Source of the DNA: Physcia stellaris
Lineage: Eukaryota > Ascomycota > Lecanoromycetes > Caliciales > Physciaceae
DNA: 64,000 nt
Assembly (NCBI GenBank): GCA_018902385.1
Contig: JABSSW010000052.1
Coordinates: forward strand, 248,001 to 312,000
Direction of reading: 5' to 3'
The notes below the pieces were generated by a model. It did not search any database, had not been told where the DNA came from, and saw only the letters and a program-made list of their open reading frames with translations. The position numbers were made by a program, and so were the translations under genes. This document shows positions 1,824 through 17,169 of the stretch, one piece after another; positions within the stretch are counted from its first letter, which is position 1, and the number at the start of each line of letters is the position of its first letter.

Positions 1824-1976
1824 TGTTACAGATATGTAGAGTGCAACGTGTTTATATTCATGATAATACTATCTATCGTACATGTGATGAATGTGAATTA
1901 TTGTACAGAATTTGCACGCTAATCTATAATAAAATAACGTTTTGACATTGTTTTTGATGATGAATTTATTTCAATA
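1824..1976 (-). repeat. copia-type LTR (element 3' LTR), partly mutated
   Basis: Same 153-bp length as the partner at 14270-14422. The outer part (from 1824) keeps normal dinucleotides, while the inner part beyond about 1900 has lost C before pyrimidines. The mutated tract therefore begins inside the LTR. Confidence 0.85.
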
Positions 1977-4956
1977 TTTTTTCTCGAATTTGCAAAAATA
2001 TAAAATCATGATGTTTAATTCATTTCGAACATGTCGATAAATCGTTGATATTTGAACGAAAATAAAAATTTGATGAAATCGTCGATTGACATGATGTCGA
2101 TTGTTATGTATTTGAATTCAATGCGATTTTTTTTAATTTCGTTTTTTACATAATAATATACGATATCGACGTGTTTGATGCGATCATGATATATTAAATT
2201 TTCATTGAATGTTTTGACGTTTTGATTGTCAATATTTATCAATATTTTGACGTAATTGTTCGATTGATTTTGAATTCGTAAATCAACGAATAATTGTTTG
2301 AATCAAATAATTTTTTTGACGACGAATGATATGATTATATATTCGACGACGCAAATAAACGTGATCACGATAAATTGAAATTTTGACATTCAATTTATCG
2401 AATCGTCGTTTAATAAAAACAAATATGTTTCGATGAATTTTTTGAAAATTTTGTCACGAATTCAATTTGCATCGCAATATATTTCGATGTTTAATTTTTT
2501 GTTGAAATTATCGTCGTAAATTATGCAAAAATCGATCGTGAAATTGAAATAAATTATAACACGTTTGATTGTTTTGATATGATTAAAATTGAAATTTTGA
2601 ACAAATCGATTGATTATGAAAATCGCATTCGTTACATTTGATTTAATTTTTATCATTGCAAACATGATTGAATTCATCATTGTTTGATATTGTTTGATAT
2701 TTTGATCGATAATTTGATTAACGTTGAAAATTGTATCAAATGATTTTTTCATGAATATTCGAATTGATTTCGCATTTTGTAAATCGAATTTTTTAACGAC
2801 GCGTTGAATATATGTTTTTTAATTAAAACGAATTATGTGCATTTCGCGATTTTTGAAAATGATTATATCAAAATAAAAATTTATTGATTCAAAATCAATC
2901 ATGTCGAAAACGTTATTGAATTTTGTTTTTGTTTTGTTAATCATGATTTTATTGAAAATAATGATTTTGATATCATCGATTCATGTAATAATGATAAAAT
3001 TTTTGAAATCAACATTCGTGACGAATATGTTCTGATTCGCGTCGAAAAAATTGAAAATTAATTTTTGTAAAAAAAATTCGAACAGACGTTTATATCAAAA
3101 TTTGAATGATTGTTTCAAATCATACAATGTTTTGTTCAATTTGCAAATAATTTTGTCATTGTCACATTCAATCGAATATTTAACGTAAATATTTGAATCA
3201 ATGAATTCGTATAAAAACGCAATTTTCACGTTCATTTGTTCAATTTTCAAATTCAAAAAAACGACAACGACGAATAGAACTCGAAAAATCATTGATTTGA
3301 CGACGAAAACAAAAATTTGATCAAAATCAATGTCGTATTGTTGTAAAAAATTTTTGACGTATCATTTAATTTTGTATCGTATTACAACGTCATCGATATT
3401 GCGTTTGAATTTGTAAATTCATTTATCGTTCAACGATTTTTTTCATCGAACGTGAAATTTATTAAATTTCAAATGTGATTTTTCGATAAAAAGTCGAATT
3501 TTTTTTTCATTGTTTTTAATCATTATGAAAAATGAAAATTTCGTGCGACGTCGTTGTAATTATTTAATTTTTTTTCGTCGATCGTCAACATTGCTATGAA
3601 TTTTTCGAACGAAAAAACGTCGATGTTTTCGACGTAATCGATCAACAATGAAACGAAATTGATTGTATCAAATTCAACGTTTGCAATTGAAATTGATTGA
3701 AAATCAACAATGTTGTCGAACAAAACAATTAAATTATTTGAATTTGAATTTCAATTTGCGAACAATTCACGCATTGTTAAATGAAACATCGTGAAATTGA
3801 CAAAAATTATAACATTGTAAACGATAAAATTTATAAAAAAATTTATTCGAATTGTTTTTCTGTTTGAGCGCATTGTAACGTATTTTTGTGAAATTTTTTG
3901 AAAATTTTTTTGTTGTTGTGACGTCATTGATTTTTGTATAATGATATTTGAAAATTTGATTTTGATATGTGATCGAATTTCAATATTTTGAAAAATTTGA
4001 AATTGAATTTTTTGTTTTTTTGCAATGAATTCAATGTGAATAACAAAAAAATTCATTATTGTTGAATCAACAATTGATTCGATAAAATTTTCATCGAATT
4101 CGATATCAATTTTTGATGTTGATTTGTAATTATAAATATCGAAATTTTTGACGCGTTCGATTTTCTGACTAATCGATATGTAAATTCGATAAATGATGTC
4201 ATCGTCATATTCGATGAAATTTTTTTTTTCGACGTTTCATTTAAAATGATTTTTGATTTTTTTGTTGATGACGACGTAAACGATTGATTCGAATAAATAC
4301 ATGTTCGTCAATTTCGAAAACTGTTCGTAAATATTTTCGAACGATGATTGATTTTTCAAATACGAAATTGAACGTCGATTTTTGATATACGTTATTGCAT
4401 GTGTGATGTTTGATCACAAAAAATTCGATATGTTTTTCGTCAATAACGTTGTTTTGATCATAATGATGAAAATGCGTTAATATGTTTCGATTACATCATT
4501 GACGTTCTGAACATTTGTTGAAACTAAATTGAATTCAATGTTTTGATTGTTAAAATAATTGATTGATTGCGTGTTGCGAAATTCGTTGTCATAATTTGTA
4601 CGTACGATTTTGACGTCAACATCGAATTGACGTTTGATTCAATTGATGTATTTGATAAAATATTGTAATCATTCGTGTTTGTTTTTAACGATGTATATTT
4701 TCGTTCAACGTGATTTGTCATCGATGATATTAATATAATAACGTTCATTTTCAAAATTTTCGATCGTTATTGATATTAAATCAATGTGAATAATATGAAA
4801 CGCTTTTTCGACATGATGAATATTTTTTTTATTCGATTTTTTTTTTGTTTTGATTAGTTTGCAAACATCGCAATGATTATTTTTGCAATCGTTTTGATAA
4901 AAATGATTCAATTTTTTTAAATATTGACGTAATAAAAAAAAATTCATGTAATTCAA

Positions 4957-5348
4957 TGTAATACGTTCGCGCTACCGGACAGCTAGCTCATGCGCTAGTC
5001 CTGGGTACGCGCCTGCGTAGCGCAAGTGCTTGGCATTAGTAATGGATGTAACCCAGATGTAACTTAGCTATAAGCGCACGTCTAATAGGGACGTCATGGA
5101 TTGATGTCATAACCATGACGTTAACCAAAGCGTCATAGCTATTACGTCAGGTACGGGTATAGATAGACTGCCCACCTCCTTCCTCGTTGAGTTTCAACGA
5201 TTAGTCTTACACCTACAGTACCCATACGGTGCTGGTAGTTAGTAATTGAAGTCTATTAAGTCTCACGTCTTTCAATAGCCCGGTGCGCTACCGTAGAGCT
5301 AGTACACTATTGGAACCTGCTCTACGCCAGCGCGCCTAAGTCCTTACA
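4957..5348 (+). repeat. gypsy 5' LTR
   Basis: 392 bp, TG...CA ends, preceded by TTCAA. Identical by eye to 11916-12307. Several TGACGT-like and ACGTCA motifs lie inside. The stretch just downstream (GTTCTAATCG) is where the primer-binding site should be; I could not assign a tRNA. Confidence 0.95.
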
Positions 5349-8300
5349 GTTCTAATCGTTCCACCTTTCGAAGGGAAAGGCCCGAGACCTATTAGCATTA
5401 TGGCTGAACCCAATATCGACATCCCAGGTCCCAGAGTAGAGGACCTTGGTGATGCTACAGATACTTCAGATAGTACAACCTCTTCGAGCTGGAGCGGCGT
5501 GAGCCACTCCCAGCCAGACGATCCTCCTATTGACAATGCGACGACGCAGCGCACCCTGGAGCAAATGACAGCTGCTTTCCGGGAACTTAACGATGAAGTC
5601 GCCCAACTGCGGACCCAGACTCGAGCAAATCAAGGTGCAGCGCAACCCGCTATCGCACCGCAAGCGCAACCAGTACCAGTTGTACCTATCGCCCACTCTA
5701 AGGAACGAAAACCCAAGGAACAGCCTTCTTACAAGGGCGAGAGTGAGGGTGAACATATCCGCTGGTTCCGCGAGGCCGAACTCGAATTTCTGGCGTGCCC
5801 TAGTTATTTTATGGATGACCGATCGAAAATCCTTTGGTGCATGTCATCGTTGCGAGGGGATCCTCAATCCCAGTGGTTCAATCGCACCGATAACGGTAAA
5901 GACTTGGAGGATATTTCCTATGATTATTACAAGTCTTTTCTTTTGAATTTGGTAGCAGATCCAGTGAACCGCCGGCTCGCCGCCTACGAAAATTGGGAGC
6001 GAGCTCGTCAACGCGCGGATCAAAAGGTGTCTAGCTTCAAGAGTGAGCTCGAGGAGTATGAGGCTCATTTGCCGCCTTTTGATGAGGTTCATTCGGTCAA
6101 CTTTTTCTTTTGTAAGCTATTGCCATCGTTGAAGGAGAAGTTGTTAGGTACCGGAGAGGTACCGACGAATAGAGAGGACTTGTTTGCGAAGGCCGTCATG
6201 TTGGAGAAAACCCTCGAGCGCGAGCGGCGAACAGGCTCGCGTGCTCAGAATAATCAAAACACCTCCAAGCAGAAGGGAGGCAAAGGCAAGAATAAGGGGC
6301 AATTCCAACAGCAGGGCCAGCAGCAAGGCCAATCGCAGGGTCGTTCCAATCAAAACACCTCTCACGACTCTGGGCGCAACACGCATGCGGGGAGCAAGCG
6401 GAAGCGCAATGAAGACGACCAAGGTACAGGACCAACGTGTTATCGATGCCATCGCAAAGGCCATTATGCTTCTGATTGCAAGGCTGATGTGGATGGCTCG
6501 GATAATCAACATACCACCGCTGCCGTTGATGCCACACCCGAGTCAAAAAGGTCAAGCTCCGCGGACGCCTCGCAAGCGGAGCAAAAAAAGACCAATAGAG
6601 GCTCGAAATCCTATTGTGGTTCAAGGCTGGGCCAGACTCCTGGATGATGAGCGACTTGTTCGCGCGCTCGTGGATCCTGGAGCCAAAATCAATCTTATCA
6701 ATCAAGCTTTTGTCACTCAATGGGAAATGCAACCGATAGGCGGAGCAACCTTACCGCTACCGGGCTTCCTGGATGGACAAGGTCGCTATTGCCATGGGGC
6801 GCATGAACTCACCTACAACATAGTAGACTCGTGGGGTCAGCATCGCCAATGCAAGACTTTGTTCTATGCAGTTGACTATACTGGACCGGATCTTATTTTG
6901 GGTATGCCTATGCTGGCTGCTGAAAATATACTAGTGGATCCGGCGGAGAGCAGTTGGCGCTTCAAAATCAAGTCCAAGAAGCTCCAGATTGATACGCCTA
7001 GGCAATTTGCTAAGGGCTTAGAGGGCCACGGGCAGGTATTCGCGTTGATATGTGCAGGAGTCGAGGAGCAGTCGGGGAAGCAGAAGTTTAAGGTTACGGA
7101 GGTGCCGGAGCAGTTAAAGGATCTAGAGAGCCAATTTGACGACACGAAGGCAGGTATCCTACCCGAGCTAGGTAGGAGTGACCATGCTATTGATCTGAAG
7201 GAGGGCGGGGAGCCGCCGTTCATGCCGCTGTATAATTTATCACAGAATGAACTAGCGGAGCTCCGGCGCTACATCGAAGATGCCTTGGCCAAGGGATGGA
7301 TTAAGCATTCAGTCTCCCGCTGGCGCGCCGATACTTTTTGTACCAAAAAGGGATGGAGGTCTTCGTCTTTGTGTGGATTATCGAGGTCTAAATGCGGTGA
7401 CAATCAAGAATCGTCATCCATTACCTCTAATCACGGAGACTCTGGACCGCCTTAGTGGTGCTAAGAAGTTCACCAAGATCGACCTGAAGGATGCCTATCA
7501 TCGGATTCGCATCAAGCAGGGCGACGAGTGGAAGACGGCGTTCCGCACGCGGTACGGGCATTTCGAGTATCAGGTCATGCCTTTTGGATTAGCCAATGCC
7601 CCAGCAACCTTCCAAGCTTATATCAATAAGGCTTTGCGGGGGCTTGTCGACGTCATCTGTGTGGTCTACTTGGACGATATCTTGATATATAGCAGCGATC
7701 CAGCGCAGCACTGGCGGCATGTGCGCCTTGTGCTTCAGCGACTGAAGCAGTATGAGCTGTATGTCAATTTAAAGAAGTGCGAATTTGCCACCGATCAGGT
7801 TGAGTTCCTAGGCTTCATTGTGTCCACTGAGGGTGTACAAATGGATCCAGAAAGGATTCGAACCATTGAGGAATGGCCGCGACCTAAGAGCTACCGCGAG
7901 CTACAGGTATTCTTAGGATTCGTTAATTATTATCGTCGCTTTATCCATGGCTACTCAAAGCTAGCTGCACCACTTACTGGCCTATTGAAAGGCAGTAAGC
8001 AAGGCAAAAAATCTGGACCTTTTGTTTGGGAGGAAAGTCGGAGCTGGCGTTCCGCCAGCTGCGCGATACCTTTACATCGGCCTCCATCCTCCATCATTAT
8101 GATCCTGCCAAGAAGATCAAGGTGGAGACCGATGCCTCGGGTTTCGGAGTTTCAGGTATCCTTAGTCAACCTGATGAGCAAGGTCATTGGCGTCCGGTCG
8201 CGTTCTGGTCGCGGAAGATGATACCGGCGGAAATGAACTACGAAACCCATGACCAGGAACTACTAGCTATAGTTATGGTCTTTCAGCAATGGCGACACTA

Positions 8301-10526
8301 TCTCGAAGGCGCTGCGCACGCGGTGGAGGTGTGGTCTGACCACAATAATCTAAGAGGGTTTATGAAGCAAAAGGAGCTTAACTCAAGGCAGGCCAGATGG
8401 GCCCTTAAGTTAGCTGCCTATGACTTCGAAATCTTCCATCGTGCAGGCAAAACCAACCCGGCAGATGGGCCATCGAGACGCCCGGATTACGAAGGGACAT
8501 CGCCATTTAACACCAAGCTTCTGCCCACGTTGCAGAATAAGCTTGCGCTATCGTCAAGGGAGCGGACCGATCCTGGAGATCAGGGCTCTGCTTCGGACAT
8601 CGCAGCAGGTATTCAGCTATCCAAGGACAGTGCGCGCACGGAGAACAAGCGCGAGGTGCTAGAAGGTCTAGGCCCACTGTTCCAGTTAGCTGGTGTACAG
8701 GTTGTCATCCCTAGGAAAGAGGTGCGAGATCTACCTGAGGAACCCTACGAAGAGCCGCAGAGGTCAATGAAGTCCTTGATTAAGGAGCTTCAGGCTACCG
8801 ACAAAACGGTTAAGGAATTTGTTGAGAAAAGCAAAGAGCCACCTCGCCGCCGGCGCAACAAATCCTATTGGGAAATGGATTCCGAAGGTCTTCTTAGGTT
8901 CAAAGGCCGCCTCTATGTACCTGGAGATGCAGCAGTAAGGGAGGAGCTCATAAGCAAGAATCACGATGATCCTTTGGCAGGGCATTTTGGTGTTGATAAA
9001 ACTGTGGACTTGATCCAACGAAAGTTTTATTGGCCCGCCTGCGCGGAGCAGGTTCGTTCATATGTCAAGACTTGTGACATATGCCAACGTACCAAAGTTC
9101 ATCGGCATAAGCCTTATGGGGAGCTCAAATCCTTACCTGTTTCGAATATCCCTTGGAAAGAGATCACCATGGACTTTATCACCGGCTTGCCTTCCAGCAA
9201 GCGCCGCGGTGTCGTCTATGACTCGATCTTAGTGGTAGTGGATCGTTGTACCAAGATGGCCAGATACATTCCGGTTACGACCAAAATCGATGCCGCTGCA
9301 CTAGCGGAAGTCTTCTATGAGGAGATTGTTCTTCGATTTGGCGCCCCGAATGGTATAGTGAGTGACAGGGGTTCTGTCTTCACGAGTGCATTTTGGTCTT
9401 CGGTGTGCTATCACGCCCGCATTAAGCGACGGTTAAGCACTGCGTTTCATCCTCAAACGGATGGCTTAACCGAGCGCCAAAACCAGGTTCTTGAGACGTA
9501 CTTGCGTACATTCGCCGACGCGGAGCAAGCGGGATGGGCAAATATGCTTCCAATGGCTGAATTTGCTTATAATAACGCTACGCACTCCTCTGCAGGTGCT
9601 TCGCCTTTCTATCTTATGTATGGTTACCATCCAGAAATCCATTATGTGGTCGAGGACGACCCCAATGGGGAGAGGGTACCCACTGCAAAAGAAAGAGTCA
9701 AGCACTTGAATGAAATAAGAGAGGCGTTGGTAGAGCGTTTAGAGTCCGCTGCCGCAGAGCAGGCGAAATACTACAATCAAAACCACGAACCAAAGGAGTT
9801 CAATGTGGGTGATTTAGTAATGCTCAATACCAAGAACCTTAAGCAGCGACGTCCTAGCAAGAAGATGTCGCACAAGTTCGTTGGACCCTTTCGTGTGGAG
9901 GATAAAGTCGGTGCGCAGGCGTACCGCCTTACTTTACCCAATACCTACCGCATCCATAATACTTTTCATGTCTCGCTACTGGAAGATTATCATCATAGAG
10001 CAGGCGATAAGCACGCGGAGCAGCTTATGCAGGCCCCAGAACTCATTGATGATGAAGAACAGTGGGAGATTGAAGAGATCCTAGATAAGATGGGTGGCAG
10101 GAAGGGTATTTGGTACAAGGTCAAGTGGCTTGGTTGGGGTTCGGAGTATAACCAATGGTTACATGAAGATGAGTTCAAGAATGCCCCAGATCTGGTGGAG
10201 AAGTACAATGAGCGCGCGCCGCGCAAGCGCAAGCGACGCCATTGACCAATCCAAAGTAACTTACCTTGTTTCAGTGCCAGCAATGGCTTGACCCCTTCGT
10301 CCTATCGCCTAAAGCGATAAAGACGATGGGGCCGCCCAGCATCAACATATGGCCACGAACAAGGAAAGGTAAACAAACGCCAGACGCCAAACAAAGGAAA
10401 TCTATGGACAGGAAAGGGGCCGCCTACTCACCGCATACTTACTCCGAATCGGAGCCAGATTCGCCCGAGGTGGACGAGCCGGAGCTCGACGAGCTCGAAG
10501 AGCTCGAAGTGCCCGAAGAACTCGTC

Positions 10527-11300
10527 TCATCGGGATCCACTTCGTCGGCCGAAGCCGCAGAAGGAACCCCCGAGGTCTCTGACCCCTGGGTCATCATCCC
10601 CTGGATGAGGTCCTTGTATCCAGTTAATGCGAAAATGGGAGTAGAGGATGTTCCGCTTGCTTACCGCCAGCTGCGCATCCCTCTCCATCAGAAGACCCAT
10701 CAACTCCTCTCTCTCCTCCTCCAACTCCTCCACTCTCCCCGCCAACACCATCCTCTCCGCTCTCCCCTCCTCAGCCTCATCCTGCAGATCAGAGATCTGC
10801 CCTTCCGCCTCCGCCAATCGCTCGCCAAGCTGGTCCGCCAGAACCGTGGCACGATTGACCGCTGGCTGTGCGCGGCCTGCGGTAGCCGGGGTGTACCCAT
10901 GGCTGCGGCGCCACTGCTTCAAATCAGCAACCGCACTCTTCCTCCGCCTTTCGATGCGAGCGGAGATGGGTTGGCCGCGCCGCTGGGCTCTTGCGAACCC
11001 GCGCACGACCCTCTCCACCCGCCGTCGAAACCGTTCTGGGAACTGTGGACTGTTAGCGCTGTCGCACCGCGTGCGCAATCAGGTACATACCGGGTGACAG
11101 AGGTTTGAACCGTGATGCTGGGAGCGGCACCTCCCGCAAGCCCCCAAAGCACCGCGGACGCACGCATGACGGCCAAGGCACGTCATACATGCGAGGTCCT
11201 CGCAGACTATGGCAGGTTAGCTTGTTGTTGTTGTTTGCGCATGTGGCGCACGAGCTCCAGTGGTACTTACGCCGGTCTCCTTGAGGATCGGCCATAGCCT
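10527..11300 (-). CDS. antisense gene in the 3' region of the gypsy element (Cys-rich start, coiled coil)
   Basis: On the strand opposite gag-pol, between the chromodomain and the 3' LTR, lies an open region of about 180 codons. It starts arginine-rich and continues as a Leu/Glu coiled coil (for example VEELEEEREELMGLLMERDA). Upstream, around 11100-11290, is a short stretch dense in cysteines on the same strand, with splice-like signals between the parts. It could be an element-borne accessory antisense gene or captured host sequence. I do not recognise a family. An overlapping forward frame at 10266-11108 is acidic and then Leu/Ser/Pro-rich low complexity and looks less real. Confidence 0.45.
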
Positions 11301-11915
11301 GAAATAAATAGACTGTCGTATTGAAGGCTATATACATAAGCAACGTTGCGCAAGCGTTGGAGGGTACCTTACGCGAAAAGAGTTGTGGTAGAAGGGGTAT
11401 GAAGAGGGAAAGGAGAGTGCGAGCAGGAAGGTTGTTGATAAACAACATCGTGGAGCTACCGGCACGCTGCCTTCGCAACCGGCGAAACTCCATGTTTATC
11501 AACAAAGGGATCCGCGCCGACGCTCCGATGAAGCTGAACATGGATCCCGCCACCCAAATCTTGGTGTTGACACCTTGATCATCAACATTGGATCATTGCG
11601 ACTCCAGACTTGCATTGGGAGCATGCTCTACGATTGCGCAATGATATGGGAGACTCTTTTCCTTCAGGACAAAGGTCTGGAAGGTTTTTAACGAGCTCTT
11701 GAGCAAGCGGTACATGGGCGCATTGTGATATCGCACATGGTACCCCTTGGAAGCCCCTTTTCTTCCGTCTGCCTTCGGGGTTTTGGGAGTTTTTGGTACT
11801 GGCTTCAGTGGATTCTTTGGGACTTTACAGTCAAGGCATTTACATGTTGTTTCTACCTATTGCACTGGTACTGCTCCTATGCACTGGAGACCAGCGCACT
11901 AAGAGGGGAGGCAAC

Positions 11916-12307
11916 TGTAATACGTTCGCGCTACCGGACAGCTAGCTCATGCGCTAGTCCTGGGTACGCGCCTGCGTAGCGCAAGTGCTTGGCATTAGTA
12001 ATGGATGTAACCCAGATGTAACTTAGCTATAAGCGCACGTCTAATAGGGACGTCATGGATTGATGTCATAACCATGACGTTAACCAAAGCGTCATAGCTA
12101 TTACGTCAGGTACGGGTATAGATAGACTGCCCACCTCCTTCCTCGTTGAGTTTCAACGATTAGTCTTACACCTACAGTACCCATACGGTGCTGGTAGTTA
12201 GTAATTGAAGTCTATTAAGTCTCACGTCTTTCAATAGCCCGGTGCGCTACCGTAGAGCTAGTACACTATTGGAACCTGCTCTACGCCAGCGCGCCTAAGT
12301 CCTTACA
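11916..12307 (+). repeat. gypsy 3' LTR
   Basis: 392 bp, same sequence as the 5' LTR, followed by TTCAA. A purine-rich AAGAGGGGAGG precedes it and is the likely polypurine tract. Confidence 0.95.
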
Positions 12308-14269
12308 TTCAAATTTCGATGTTATACGATGAACGACAATGATAATGTTGTTGACAATGCAATCATTTAATGTGATTGCAATTTCAAAACGTATAATTCG
12401 TTGTTTTGCAAAAAAACATATTCGATTGATTTGTTTTGATATTTGAAAATGTGATTTTCAATGTTTCAATAAACGTTTTGTTTTTCGAATGTTGATATTG
12501 ACAGCAAATTTGTTGACGAGTTTGACATATAAAAAATTGACAAATCAATGAATTGATTATTTGCATTGTTGTAAAAAAAAACGAGCAATAATTTGATTAT
12601 TTCTTTTTTTTCAACAATAAAACGAATTTTGTTTGCAATTACAACATGTTCGATGTGAAACATGAAAAAATGTATAAAATTTCGATTTTTGCACACGTGA
12701 ATGTTGATGTTCGAATTTGTGTATCACAACATATCGTTGATTGAATGATTAATGAACAAAATTTGTTTTCAAAATTCAATCAACGACGTTGATTGTTATT
12801 GTGAATTTTGAATTTTTTTCAAAATTTTGTCGTATGAGTGATCAAACATGTTTTTGTCAATTCATTTTTTGAAAGCGTTTTTGAATGATTATAATAACAT
12901 TTTTCAAAATCATGTTTGATGAAATCGTTGTTTACGATTTCTGATGATGCAAAGAAAATCGACGTATTCAAATTTTGATGTATTGAAACGAATACGTTTA
13001 AATTTTTCGAAACGATCAACGATCATGCAATCAATTTGATTTTGTTATTGTATCGATGATGATTTTAACGAAATTCAAAAAAAAAAAAATTTCGATTTCG
13101 ATGAGATTTGTGTTTTCGAAAATTCATTCGTCACGTTGACGAATCACGAAATAATTGAAATGAATTAATTTGTGCATTTTGAATAACAAAATATTTTGAC
13201 AAAATACGTCGACAATGAATTTCGAATCAATCTTTTCGATGATCAATTGATTGTGTAATGATTCGACGATTTTGATGTAAAATTCGATATTCGTTAAAAT
13301 GACAAATCGATCAATGAAATCGAAAATGATATCGACGAAAAAAACGAAAATATTTTTTTGAAACGTTTTGTTATTTTTGTTCAATAAATCAATGATGTTG
13401 AATTCGTTATGACAATGATAAAAAAACAATAATCGACGTTCATCATTGAACAACAAAAAAAAAAAATTTATTCAAATTTCGTTCGTGTTTCTCGACGACG
13501 ATGATGAAATTCGTGAATTTGATTTTCGTTTTTGCATCGATTTAAATTTCAATCGATATTTTTATCGTGTAAAAATTCGACGATAAACACGATTTTATTG
13601 ATAAATTGATTGTTCATTCAACGTGATTGACTCGAAAATCGTTTTTGACGTCGATTTTTCAATTGAAATACTGTTTTGATTTTGAAATGAAAAACGACAA
13701 AATTGCGAATGATGTTTGACGTAATCATTGTGATATTTGAGTTTGAAAATTTGAATCGTATAAATGAAAAAAAAATAAAACGTATATGATTCGTGAAATC
13801 GTGTAAAACGTGTAAATTTCATGTCGTATTTGTTTTTTTTTTTCATTTCGTAACAAATGAATTTGAAACATCGATTCGAAACAATGACGAATTCATTGAA
13901 TCATCGAGTCGTGTATGTAAAATTTCGTGTTTTTTGAAAACGTTTTCATCGAAATCGAATGATCGATCGTGCGTTCGAATTTGACGTTCGTTTGAACGAT
14001 AAATGACGTTTTCATCGATCGACGTCGATATTGATTTTTTGAATTTTTGAAAAATTAAATGACGATCGTTAAAATAAACAATATGCATTTTATTAACGAC
14101 ATTAAATGACGATAAATTCGTTGTGAATTCAATTTGATGTTTTCGAATTTGATCGTCGTTTAATTCATCAAAGATTTTTCGATCGATGCATGAAATCAAC
14201 GTTTGAACGTTGTAAAATAATATGAATCGATTCGAATGATGTTTGACAAACACTGTCGAACTCATAATT

Positions 14270-14422
14270 TGTTACAGATATGTAAAGTGCAACGTGTTTA
14301 TATTCATGATAATATTATCTATCGTACATGTGATGAATGTGAATTATTGTACAGAGTTTGCACGCTAGTCTATAATAGAATAACGCCTTGGCATTGCCTT
14401 TGGTGGTGAGTTTACTCCAACA
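14270..14422 (-). repeat. copia-type LTR (element 5' LTR), mostly unmutated
   Basis: Partner of 1824-1976. I count 16 differences over 153 positions, all transitions. Only the inner edge of this copy is mutated; the outer half is normal DNA, so the affected tract ends near 14330. Confidence 0.85.
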
Positions 14423-14809
14423 GGATTTGGGGGAGGGGGTGGGAAGGGAAGGAAAGGGGAAGGGGAAGGGAGGGGGTGTAGATATCTGTACTAGGGTAGG
14501 GTACTTCAGTCCCCCCATTTTTGTGATAACAATTCTTTGTTGGACCGTGAAGGATCGGCGGTAAATCTATTCCTTTCCTTTTCGAGGATAGCTACGAAGA
14601 GACCGAAGTGGCGAGGGAACGACATGAGCGTGATAGGTAAGTAAAAGGTAAGTGCAAATCACACGGGAGGCATTAGAGGGTCAGGGAGTGGAAAACAATG
14701 CATTAAGAAGCTATAAAACTAGAAAACAAAAAGCCCATATATATCCAGAGCTCGGCGGTGGGGGTATGAGTCACGCCGCCGAAAAACAAGAAATACCGCT
14801 GAACCAGAG

Positions 14810-17169
14810 CTATATAGCATAATTCTCCGTATGCAAATAAACCTCCTCCCTCGCACCCTCCCCCCTCGCGACGGCCAACTGCATCCTCGCGACCTCGACC
14901 TGGACATCCCTCCTCATGCCGGGCGGCCCACACACAAACACACACGTGCGCCTCCCAAACTCCCTCTCAAAGCCGCGTAGCATGAACGGGATATCCGGAC
15001 GGCCGTACTCGGTCCTCCAGCCTTCCTTTTTCTGCGCCGTGGACACGGACGGCAGGAAGGCGAAGCGCATGAGGTTTTTCTGGAGCAGAGTCGGGGTGGA
15101 GGGGAAGCCGAAGTCGAAATTCTTGGCTCCGGTCTGATCCTGGGAGGGGTCATTGGCCTGATGATTCGAGGAGAGCGTCGAAGCTGAGGAAGGGATGGTG
15201 AGTTTGAAGGGGGTTTTACTCCGCAAGTGCGCTTTTTTGGGAGGTGGGGGTAGCTGTATGTTGGTTGCGGCAGCGCGGTGATCCCATCTTCGTTCTCGCG
15301 CCGGAGCTCTTTTTCTTTTTCGGCGTCGCCGCCGGCTTCGTCGCGGATCAGGGCGCTGTTGCGCTTCGAGGCGATGCCCTGGAACGCCTGGTTGATTTTC
15401 CCATGCACCATGTCCGAGACCGGACGGCTGGGACTCGGGGGCCATTGCTGCGGCCCTGTGATCGAACAACCCATGGGAAGGCGCTTCGCGGCCGTGATGT
15501 AGAATTGGCAATGAACGGTCTCGAGCGGGGCGAATTCGCGACAGATGCGGAGTTCTTCTTTGAACCACTCCATCGTTTCGGGCCGCTTGAGCGCCCACAC
15601 TACTTCTACCTTTTTAGTCACGGCTTTGCCGTCTCGCATCTTCTTGATCAGGTCTAAAAGCTGGCTGACGATGGCGGTGATGCCGCTTCCGCCTGCGAAC
15701 AGGACGACGGTGTCGAAGGATGCGAGATCGCGCTGCATGCCGCCGTAGGGCCCGTCGATGAATGCGCGATAAGTCTTGTACGGTCCTTTATCTCTGGCGG
15801 CATCGAGCACTTTGCGGGTGAATCCGCCAAAGGGCCGGAAGACGAGCGTCATGTCTCTATACTGTTCACTATACTCGGACGGAAAATCGTCGCTGCACAG
15901 CGAAGCGATGGTAAAGGGGTGGTTTTCGAAAATCGAAATGCCGGGCATGCGGAGGTAGACATATTGGCCCGGGCGCCAGCGGACTTGGGTCGGAATGGTG
16001 ACTTTGATGGCGTTTTCGGGCAGTATAGTCAGGGCTGCTTCTTCGCCGATGAGCCAGGAGGTGCGGCGTGGGTTTGTCCAGTTGAGATAAAAGAGTCGGG
16101 TGCAGTAAGAAAGGAACCAGATGCCGGCGGTGGCGGCGAGGTAATTCCAGGAGGTGAGATAATTATGGCAATGCCAGAAAAGCATGCCAAGATAGATTAT
16201 CGAGATGGGGACATGGAGGGCCACGAATAGCTCGTACATTTTTCTTCTGAAGATTGGGAGGGAATGGACGCAGAGGATGAGGAGGGGAATTAAGGCTGCG
16301 ATGCCGGTTCCGTAGATGTAGGTTTGTCCTTTGAAATAGTTCTTGAAAACAACAAGACCGCCTTGGTCCCAGATCGGAGTGACGTAAAAAGGTACTGTGT
16401 GAATTAGACTTAGGAAAAGACATATATAAGCACCCCATCTATGCAATACGTTCAACCGCTCATGACCGATTCCAGTCAGTAGCGTTATAAAATTAGCTTT
16501 CATACTGAGGGCCACGATCCAGGGCATCATCGCAACTGCGAGCATCCCGGCGCGAATGGCCAAAGGTGGAGATCCGAATGCAATGCTGGCGTAATAAAGA
16601 GGCTGAGGAATGAAACAGTATAATGTTACAAAAATGGCCGCTATCGAAACGATAAGTATAGTCGCTATAGACGGAAAGCTGAACTCTCGCTTCTTGTGCC
16701 TCAGGACTGGCAATGGCCGGTAGACAATCCATCGGACTATAGAGATCAGTTTGTCCAGTGGTGAAAACGATGAAAAGGCAGGCTCCGCTTCAGACTCCTG
16801 TGCGGGCAGTTCACCTAGCCTAGGAAAGAACTTCCGCGATGAATTATTTGTCGGGAGATTCGCCATTTCATAGTCTGTGTCTGGTGATGAAGTCTTTGAG
16901 GATTTTGTAGCCCCCTCTTTAAATTCCGCTCTTGTAATTTTGTCTGTCCACCAGTGGTAGCAATGTATCGAACATGTGAGGATGAGGAGGATGATTGAGA
17001 AGTAAACCCATCCCAGGGCGTATTTGCTAGACTTTGACCATGGATCTTCCTTTATTGCGTCTGCCAGTCCCGGCGGACTACTACTTGTTACAGGTATATT
17101 TATCCTTTCCAACAGTGTTCTCGTGGGCGTAGAGAGGAGGCTCTCGAGGTGCTTGTGTAGGGAGGGCAT
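14810..17169 (-). CDS. ferric/cupric reductase, FRE family (transmembrane flavocytochrome)
   Basis: FRE-type enzymes move electrons from cytosolic NADPH through FAD and two hemes to extracellular Fe3+ or Cu2+. From the start at 17169: a first membrane helix about residues 50-70; a ferric-reductase core of several helices with candidate heme ligands His243 (HRW), His257, His319 and His333; FAD-binding HPFT at 417-420; NADPH-binding GGSGIT at 493-498. The tail, read in another frame, carries the nucleotide-domain end (FVCGPPGM) and stops at 14810 with LHTENYAI. The two frames overlap in a low-complexity region. No GT-AG pair fits, and adding one A to the A6 run near 15233-15238 would align them, so a sequence error or single-base deletion is likely. 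Seven or so helices and about 750 residues fit the family. Neighbours give no operon-like clue. Confidence 0.9.

Follow-up and report, generated by a model that had tools for sequence, protein, structure and literature searches.

A 64,000-nucleotide stretch of the genome of Physcia stellaris, a lichen-forming fungus of the Caliciales (GenBank assembly GCA_018902385.1, contig JABSSW010000052.1, positions 248,001 to 312,000; hereafter the window) contains two AT-rich tracts that have lost cytosine before pyrimidines and kept it before purines. What process leaves such a trace? The tracts are the halves of a single mutated copia retrotransposon (1824-14422) into which a younger, unmutated gypsy element has inserted, and alignment of related copies shows C-to-T change at CpY (Y, pyrimidine) on both strands. 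The probable explanation is repeat-induced point mutation (RIP) by a RID-class DNA methyltransferase with a preference for a 3'-pyrimidine, triggered by repeat similarity. The features are listed below by window position (R, purine; LTR, long terminal repeat).

1824-4956, minus strand: relic of a Ty1/copia-type LTR retrotransposon, left part; identity to a little-mutated copy in locus L043 is 79.7% over 3113 bp; CpY and RpG nearly absent, CpY-mutated from about 1907 on.
12308-14422, minus strand: right part of the same relic; it aligns to L043 over 2129 bp (78.8% identity), is collinear with the left part and is CpY-mutated as far as about 14330.
1824-1976, no strand assigned: left copia LTR; the initial ~85 bp are less depleted and the remainder is mutated; 90% identical to the right LTR in a 155-bp alignment.
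14270-14422, no strand assigned: right copia LTR; the final ~90 bp retain CpY/RpG sites gone from the left LTR.
1907-4956, no strand assigned: CpY-depleted core, left; CC+GG 0, CpY+RpG 19 against 373 expected.
12313-14330, no strand assigned: CpY-depleted core, right; CC+GG 0.
4957-12307, plus strand: Ty3/gypsy-type LTR element, unmutated, inside the copia relic; LTRs at about 4957-5348 and 11916-12307; target-site duplication TTCAA at 4952-4956 and 12308-12312.

The copia LTR ends were set by eye from the TG...CA termini, giving an LTR of ~153 bp, and the gypsy ends and the TTCAA duplication were read from the flanking sequence. The inner boundaries of the tracts in the initial annotation of this DNA, 4956 and 12308, coincide with the ends of the inserted gypsy. 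Open reading frames (ORFs) of the L043 copia copy match RVT_2 and SH3_retrovirus on the strand equivalent to the window minus strand. The terminal repeats of the gypsy element share 99.5% identity over 400 bp, and the element matches RNase H, integrase and chromodomain profiles. Its dinucleotide make-up is ordinary, and therefore it was inserted after the copia mutation or has been unexposed since. A possible copia target-site duplication, GAATT/GGATT, lies at 1819-1823 and 14423-14427; it was seen by eye and missed by an exact-match search, and its sole difference is a G-to-A after G, a CpC-type change just beyond the copia end.

The initial annotation held that C in the tracts almost always precedes A or G and that G almost always follows T or C, and the dinucleotide counts of both tracts bear this out. 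CC and GG are absent from 1900-4956, where 13 CT and 6 AG stand against 143 CA, 260 TG and 167 CG. The counts for 12308-14330 are CC 0, GG 0, CT 9 and AG 12 against CA 100, TG 184 and CG 121. A hand count for 2041-2460 was exact: the 43 cytosines comprise 28 CpG and 15 CpA with no CpT or CpC, and ApG and GpG are likewise missing. Chance is ruled out as the cause, since 300 mononucleotide shuffles of 1907-4956 gave a mean CpY+RpG of 373 and a minimum of 331 compared to the 19 observed. The density of CpY+RpG falls from ~250 per kb in ordinary DNA to 0, 8 and 16 in the kilobases from 2001, 3001 and 4001 and to 7 in the kilobase from 13001; CpA+TpG and CpG per kb are about the same as in ordinary window DNA. 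Ordinary AT-rich composition was rejected as the cause on a small control. The only other AT-rich parts of the window, four 200-bp windows below 38% GC (800 bp in all), keep CpY, with CC+GG 23, CT+AG 63 and CA+TG 115, although CpC is lowish there.

Standard RIP indices underrate this signal, as had been anticipated. The usual cut-offs are TpA/ApT >0.89 and (CpA+TpG)/(ApC+GpT) <1.03 (PMC4188875, accessible text). The two tracts score 0.42 and 0.35 on the first index and 1.53 and 1.38 on the second, the non-RIP side of both.

Two unrelated LTR-element families were aligned to obtain the mutation spectrum. For copia, 40 of 73 first-look candidates were scored, giving a list of 40 matches, and 17 near-full-length copies were aligned to the reference L033, a little-mutated copy 80% identical to the window copia tract. 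CpC had become TpC at 219-228 of 227-228 sites (96-100%) and CpT was mutated at 212-335 of 330-339 sites (63-99.7%). Mutation of CpA ranged from 6-105 of 424-427 sites (1.4-25%, with the maximum in L022), and that of CpG from 0-20 of 334 (0-6%). Other changes were few: each copy had 0-7 C/G transversions, 4-18 T-to-C changes at ~1010 sites and 1-13 A-to-G changes at ~642. The second, independent and cleaner reference is the unmutated window gypsy, against which 7 of 20 other genomic matches were read. CpC was mutated at 96-99%, CpT at 78-97%, CpA at 3-16% and CpG at 1-6% of sites. The L062 copy has 755 of 768 CpY sites changed and 7 non-C-to-T positions in ~3 kb. Both strands are affected, with 70-100% of C-strand and 80-99.7% of G-strand CpY mutated per copy.

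The rate of CpC mutation is 1.0-4.1 times that of CpT over the 24 copies, reaching 4.1 in L025, the least mutated; it was restricted to sites that remain CpC until mutated and is a lower bound in saturated copies. CpA proceeds at 0.014-0.061 and CpG at 0-0.028 of the CpT rate, so the CpA preference of canonical RIP is absent. We infer the order CpC > CpT >> CpA > CpG. The 5' base has nearly no effect on CpY in the pooled copia copies, where mutated fractions range from 0.977-0.994 for CpC and 0.852-0.901 for CpT, and gypsy behaves likewise. CpA sites before a pyrimidine are mutated more (CAT 0.152, CAC 0.125) than the others (CAA 0.056, CAG 0.054). These results establish the CpT/CpC-directed process on both strands that the initial annotation had proposed; CpA was the main mutated site in neither family. 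The two targets are unequal, however, with CpC mutated before CpT, and CpA and CpG are largely rather than wholly spared.

The whole 44 Mb assembly was searched for cytosines with ten A/T on each side (W10). The pattern W10-CY-W10 occurs 313 times and W10-CR-W10 8705 times, a ratio of 28 to 1 in favor of purines. With the patterns reversed, as a test of the 5' base, the counts are 3321 (YC) and 2340 (RC). Among the first 100 places listed of the 313, 98 are CpT and 2 are CpC. By the pattern count, CpY-directed repeat mutagenesis is genome-wide. The assembly (147 contigs, 43.97 Mb) is smaller than the published genome of 184 scaffolds, 46.57 Mb and 43.32% GC (PMC7513301), and part may be absent. 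No treatment of RIP mutation in P. stellaris was found in the accessible text of that paper.

Eleven loci outside the copia family were examined at a 500-bp scale. L049-L057 were picked at AT-rich pattern matches (L054-L057 from the CpY list) and are not a random sample; L047 and L048 were picked blindly, and the former is mutated and the latter is not. Per 500 bp, the 11 windows with at least 38% GC have CC 62.7, CT 62.1, CA 64.5 and CpG (both strands) 55.5. The 16 windows with 28-38% GC have CC 6.8, CT 32.2, CA 60.3 and CpG 62.9, and the 53 windows below 28% GC have CC 0.2, CT 4.6, CA 53.1 and CpG 46.2. Window composition outside copia thus agrees that CpC is lost first, and CpA and CpG are slightly lower in the most AT-rich class than in ordinary DNA. 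At the similarity cut-off used, the AT-rich loci fall into several mutually dissimilar sets: one pair (L047 and L051), a group chained by partial matches (L049, L050, L053, L057 and L056) and three separate loci (L052, L054 and L055). A peculiarity of one family is rejected because the gypsy family and several unrelated loci agree with copia.

Mutation is confined to the repeat in most copies. The outer LTR end was readable in 23 of 25 loci, and in 19 of these the flank has 5-19 CpY+RpG per 50 bp with a stepwise drop to 0-1 at 250-300 bp inside the element. The little-mutated L033 shows no fall across its edge. A single little-mutated copy could be recognised per family, and its relatives are only 69-80% identical to it; the genome search with the window gypsy listed 20 matches besides itself, every one 69-75% identical. 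Matches that were not read were judged by identity alone for this count. One little-mutated copy per family is the pattern expected from a homology-triggered process. Like the sharp edges, it suggests by correlation that duplicated DNA is attacked and single-copy DNA spared.

A survey for RID and DIM-2 genes with the PF00145 profile gave four matches that resolve into three genes on contigs C5, C6 and C3, which we take, partly by their motifs, to be two of the RID class (the C6 gene putatively) and one of the DIM-2 type. The C5 gene (L041, P0001) encodes a 932-residue protein 99% identical to P. stellaris protein G7Y79_00005g016670. It has a DNA methyltransferase domain with the PPCQ motif and groups with fungal RID-type proteins, which places it in the RID/Masc1 class; its closest solved structures by sequence are DNMT1. 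Its CITTQGGG stretch is a lead to a possible change in target recognition. Among the 8 proteins that match the CITT pattern, Physcia has Q, 6 have S (CITTSGG) and the eighth has a shorter stretch. The majority of the 237 proteins compared show no match at this place, and the Teloschistales-named rows read ITCN or similar.

The C6 gene (L039, C6:790057-794028) encodes a shorter RID-like methyltransferase with SPPCQSFSPAQ where 81 of 120 listed C5-type relatives have SPPCQFFSDAH. In a separate listing of 120 relatives of the C6 protein, 29 (two partial) are 60-94% identical to it and the others 27-51%. A tree of 38 methyltransferase segments was built from 44 of the 237 proteins together with C6 and C3, minus 8 without a match to the PPCQ anchor; six of the 8 dropped for this reason are closest to C6 in that listing. 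Characterised RID and Masc1 sequences are not among its rows, its deep nodes are weak and its DIM-2 branch is very long; conclusions are drawn from the C6 clade only. With 100/99 support, C6 belongs to a separate clade of 8 rows in which only Physcia and Heterodermia are named. The C6 enzyme is a candidate for the one with the unusual target. The C3 protein, with a BAH match below the cut-off, is presumably of the DIM-2 type on the basis of a motif, the weak BAH match and its length.

What the computation shows directly is the mutation spectrum, its occurrence on both strands and across the genome, the confinement to the element in most copies examined, and the existence of RID-class and DIM-2-type genes. 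The following mechanism would account for these results. Mutually similar transposon copies would be recognised, presumably by homology and in the sexual stage, and C would be converted to T on both strands wherever the next base is a pyrimidine. CpC would react first, CpT up to ~4-fold more slowly, CpA ~16-70-fold more slowly than CpT and CpG more slowly still. Conversion would be nearly complete within the repeat and would not spread into the flank. The agent would most likely be one of the two RID-class DNA methyltransferases, reading its target from the 3' base. The overwhelming C-to-T change on both strands of multicopy DNA makes the process a RIP variant in the broad sense, not canonical RIP.

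Several points weigh against this account. We infer the timing, trigger and enzyme from the sequence of a single genome. Canonical RIP prefers CpA, and the resemblance is one of logic and not of target. The L033 reference is not pristine (228 CpC versus 339 CpT) and has short ORFs only, and the six gypsy copies other than L062 have 31-49 non-C-to-T changes each compared to its 7. The 5' base shifts the CpA and CpG rates ~2-fold. Unmutated CpT sites are common to copies above expectation (993 versus 556), as are mutated CpA sites (1104 versus 489); therefore, hot spots or shared descent contribute and the copies are not independent. Finally, three of the 23 copies with a readable end (L010, L015 and L020) lie in AT-rich flanks that blur the edge.

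The alternative that survives best is that the DIM-2 pathway, a heterochromatin-linked DNA methyltransferase route that would have a CpC/CpT preference in this fungus, did the work instead of RID. A DIM-2-type gene is present on C3, and the chromodomain of the inserted gypsy fits heterochromatin. The DIM-2 route extends into neighbouring DNA, however, and mutation is kept within the repeat in 19 of 23 copies. A 2026 review credits Neurospora DIM-2 with a CpT preference, but its accessible text does not report one for CpC (PMC13297926). This alternative is unlikely.

Slow passive decay, in which methylated cytosines before pyrimidines in repeats deaminate spontaneously, would also yield C-to-T change limited to silenced repeats. 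It is very improbable in view of the gypsy copies. L062 has 98% of its CpY sites changed, whereas its 7 non-C-to-T positions represent a per-site level about three orders of magnitude lower, and in the other six copies the level is still about two orders lower.

A cytidine deaminase (AID/APOBEC-like or other) that edits transposon DNA could place C-to-T changes on both strands, and the initial annotation had offered such an activity alongside a methyltransferase route. AID/APOBEC enzymes read the 5' base, and no such context was found: the choice of site depends on the 3' base, which is also how DNA methyltransferases behave. The 5' base is nearly irrelevant for CpY; therefore a methyltransferase-type agent is favored over a deaminase-like one, and the deaminase is still less probable than passive decay. 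A PF08210 search found no match in the genome but is uninformative because 14 of 14 control genomes were silent too, and other deaminase families were not searched for.

Ordinary CpA-type RIP combined with an odd composition peculiar to a single element family, for which the low-level CpA mutation that peaks in L022 and the lower CpA and CpG of the most AT-rich windows (53.1 and 46.2 versus 64.5 and 55.5) could be cited, is contradicted by the copia and gypsy alignments, by the agreement of several unrelated loci and by the 28 to 1 count, and has a negligible probability.

RIP by a RID-class enzyme with a 3'-pyrimidine target can be set beside the known systems. RID-dependent RIP in Neurospora crassa shares with Physcia the C-to-T change on both strands, the restriction to multicopy DNA, a RID-class gene and an AT-rich end product. 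Its reported order, CpA>CpT>CpG>CpC (PMC5496416, accessible text), is nearly the reverse of that in Physcia. The contrast is softened by the RIPCAL analysis, in which CpT changes exceed CpA changes in Neurospora Tad1 (PMC2621366, accessible text). The RIP of Trichoderma reesei, seen in crosses, also departs from the Neurospora preference, with CpA and CpG about equal and CpT next; CpC is last, unlike in Physcia (PMC5496416).

CpT targeting alone is not new. A CpT signature together with CpA was described in Magnaporthe oryzae, Botrytis cinerea and Sclerotinia sclerotiorum and tied by the authors to a RID motif and RID-class enzymes (PMC4352252, accessible text). Alignments from other RIP-capable fungi are likewise reported to show CpT as a dominant or co-dominant target (PMC7882544; Anisogramma, PMC10998396). 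Physcia resembles these fungi in that CpT is a main target. It differs from the CpT-with-CpA signature of PMC4352252 and PMC10998396, where the term CpC is absent (for the former, in its accessible text), in that CpC is mutated faster than CpT and CpA is nearly spared. CpC-to-TpT double changes are said to occur beside classical CpA mutation in Monilinia (PMC8959702, accessible text). The transposons of Microbotryum and other basidiomycetes carry CpG-biased C-to-T changes (accessible parts of PMC2621366 and PMC4352252), whereas CpG is the most protected context in Physcia.

The lichen fungus Cladonia rangiformis, a member of the same class (Lecanoromycetes), has strong RIP with sharp boundaries, RID and DIM-2 homologues as in Physcia and a RIP peak at ~16% GC; the accessible main text does not report the target base and lacks the words CpA and dinucleotide (PMC12542154). 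Some Physcia windows reach 12-20% GC, and GC alone fails to separate the two species. A 2025 survey of 1,239 fungi arrives at a CpA preference shared by RIP-like defences; Lecanoromycetes is not one of the four classes that supplied its 130 strong cases (PMC12543289, accessible text). No report of CpC-first or CpY-only RIP was found in the literature searched, which left out most subscription papers. CpC-first, CpA-sparing RIP nearly inverts the textbook pattern.

The preference changes what mutation does to coding sequence. Simulated full CpY mutation of two gypsy ORFs created 5 and 7 stops and altered 172 of 415 and 125 of 313 residues (~40%). With full CpA mutation the stops numbered 37 and 19, and with full CpG mutation there were 12 in each ORF. 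The seven real mutated gypsy copies have 5-12 and 7-8 stops in the two ORFs, mostly from TGG; in the first ORF of L064, 7 of 12 stops arose from CAG, CAA or CGG. Unlike CpA-directed RIP in Neurospora, CpY mutation creates few stops and many residue changes in these ORFs, and the outcome of the defence is altered toward missense. Tentatively, the divergent second, putatively RID-class enzyme on C6 may be the 3'-pyrimidine, CpC-first mutator, in which case the RIP target choice would have evolved to nearly the opposite of that in Neurospora and defence would work by mass missense rather than by stops. RIP surveys and detection indices rest on CpA and standard tests would overlook the Physcia pattern, which suggests that RIP elsewhere in fungi may have gone unnoticed. 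The reverse preference found here shows that the RIP target is able to evolve, and Physcia supplies natural RID-class variants for locating the residues that read the 3' base.

Other features were noted in and around the window. The 64-kb window has no Rfam match. Unmutated DNA adjoining the copia relic carries an inverted repeat pair (354-500 and 1179-1324, 79.6% identity over 147 bp) that could be a small mobile element. A long minus-strand ORF at 14914-17169, 0.5 kb from the mutated copia, encodes what by its look we take to be a protein of the ferric reductase or NADPH oxidase type. Elsewhere in the assembly, TTAGGG repeats lie no more than 100 bases from an end of contigs C1, C34, C46, C69 and C72, and such repeats are also present in C77.

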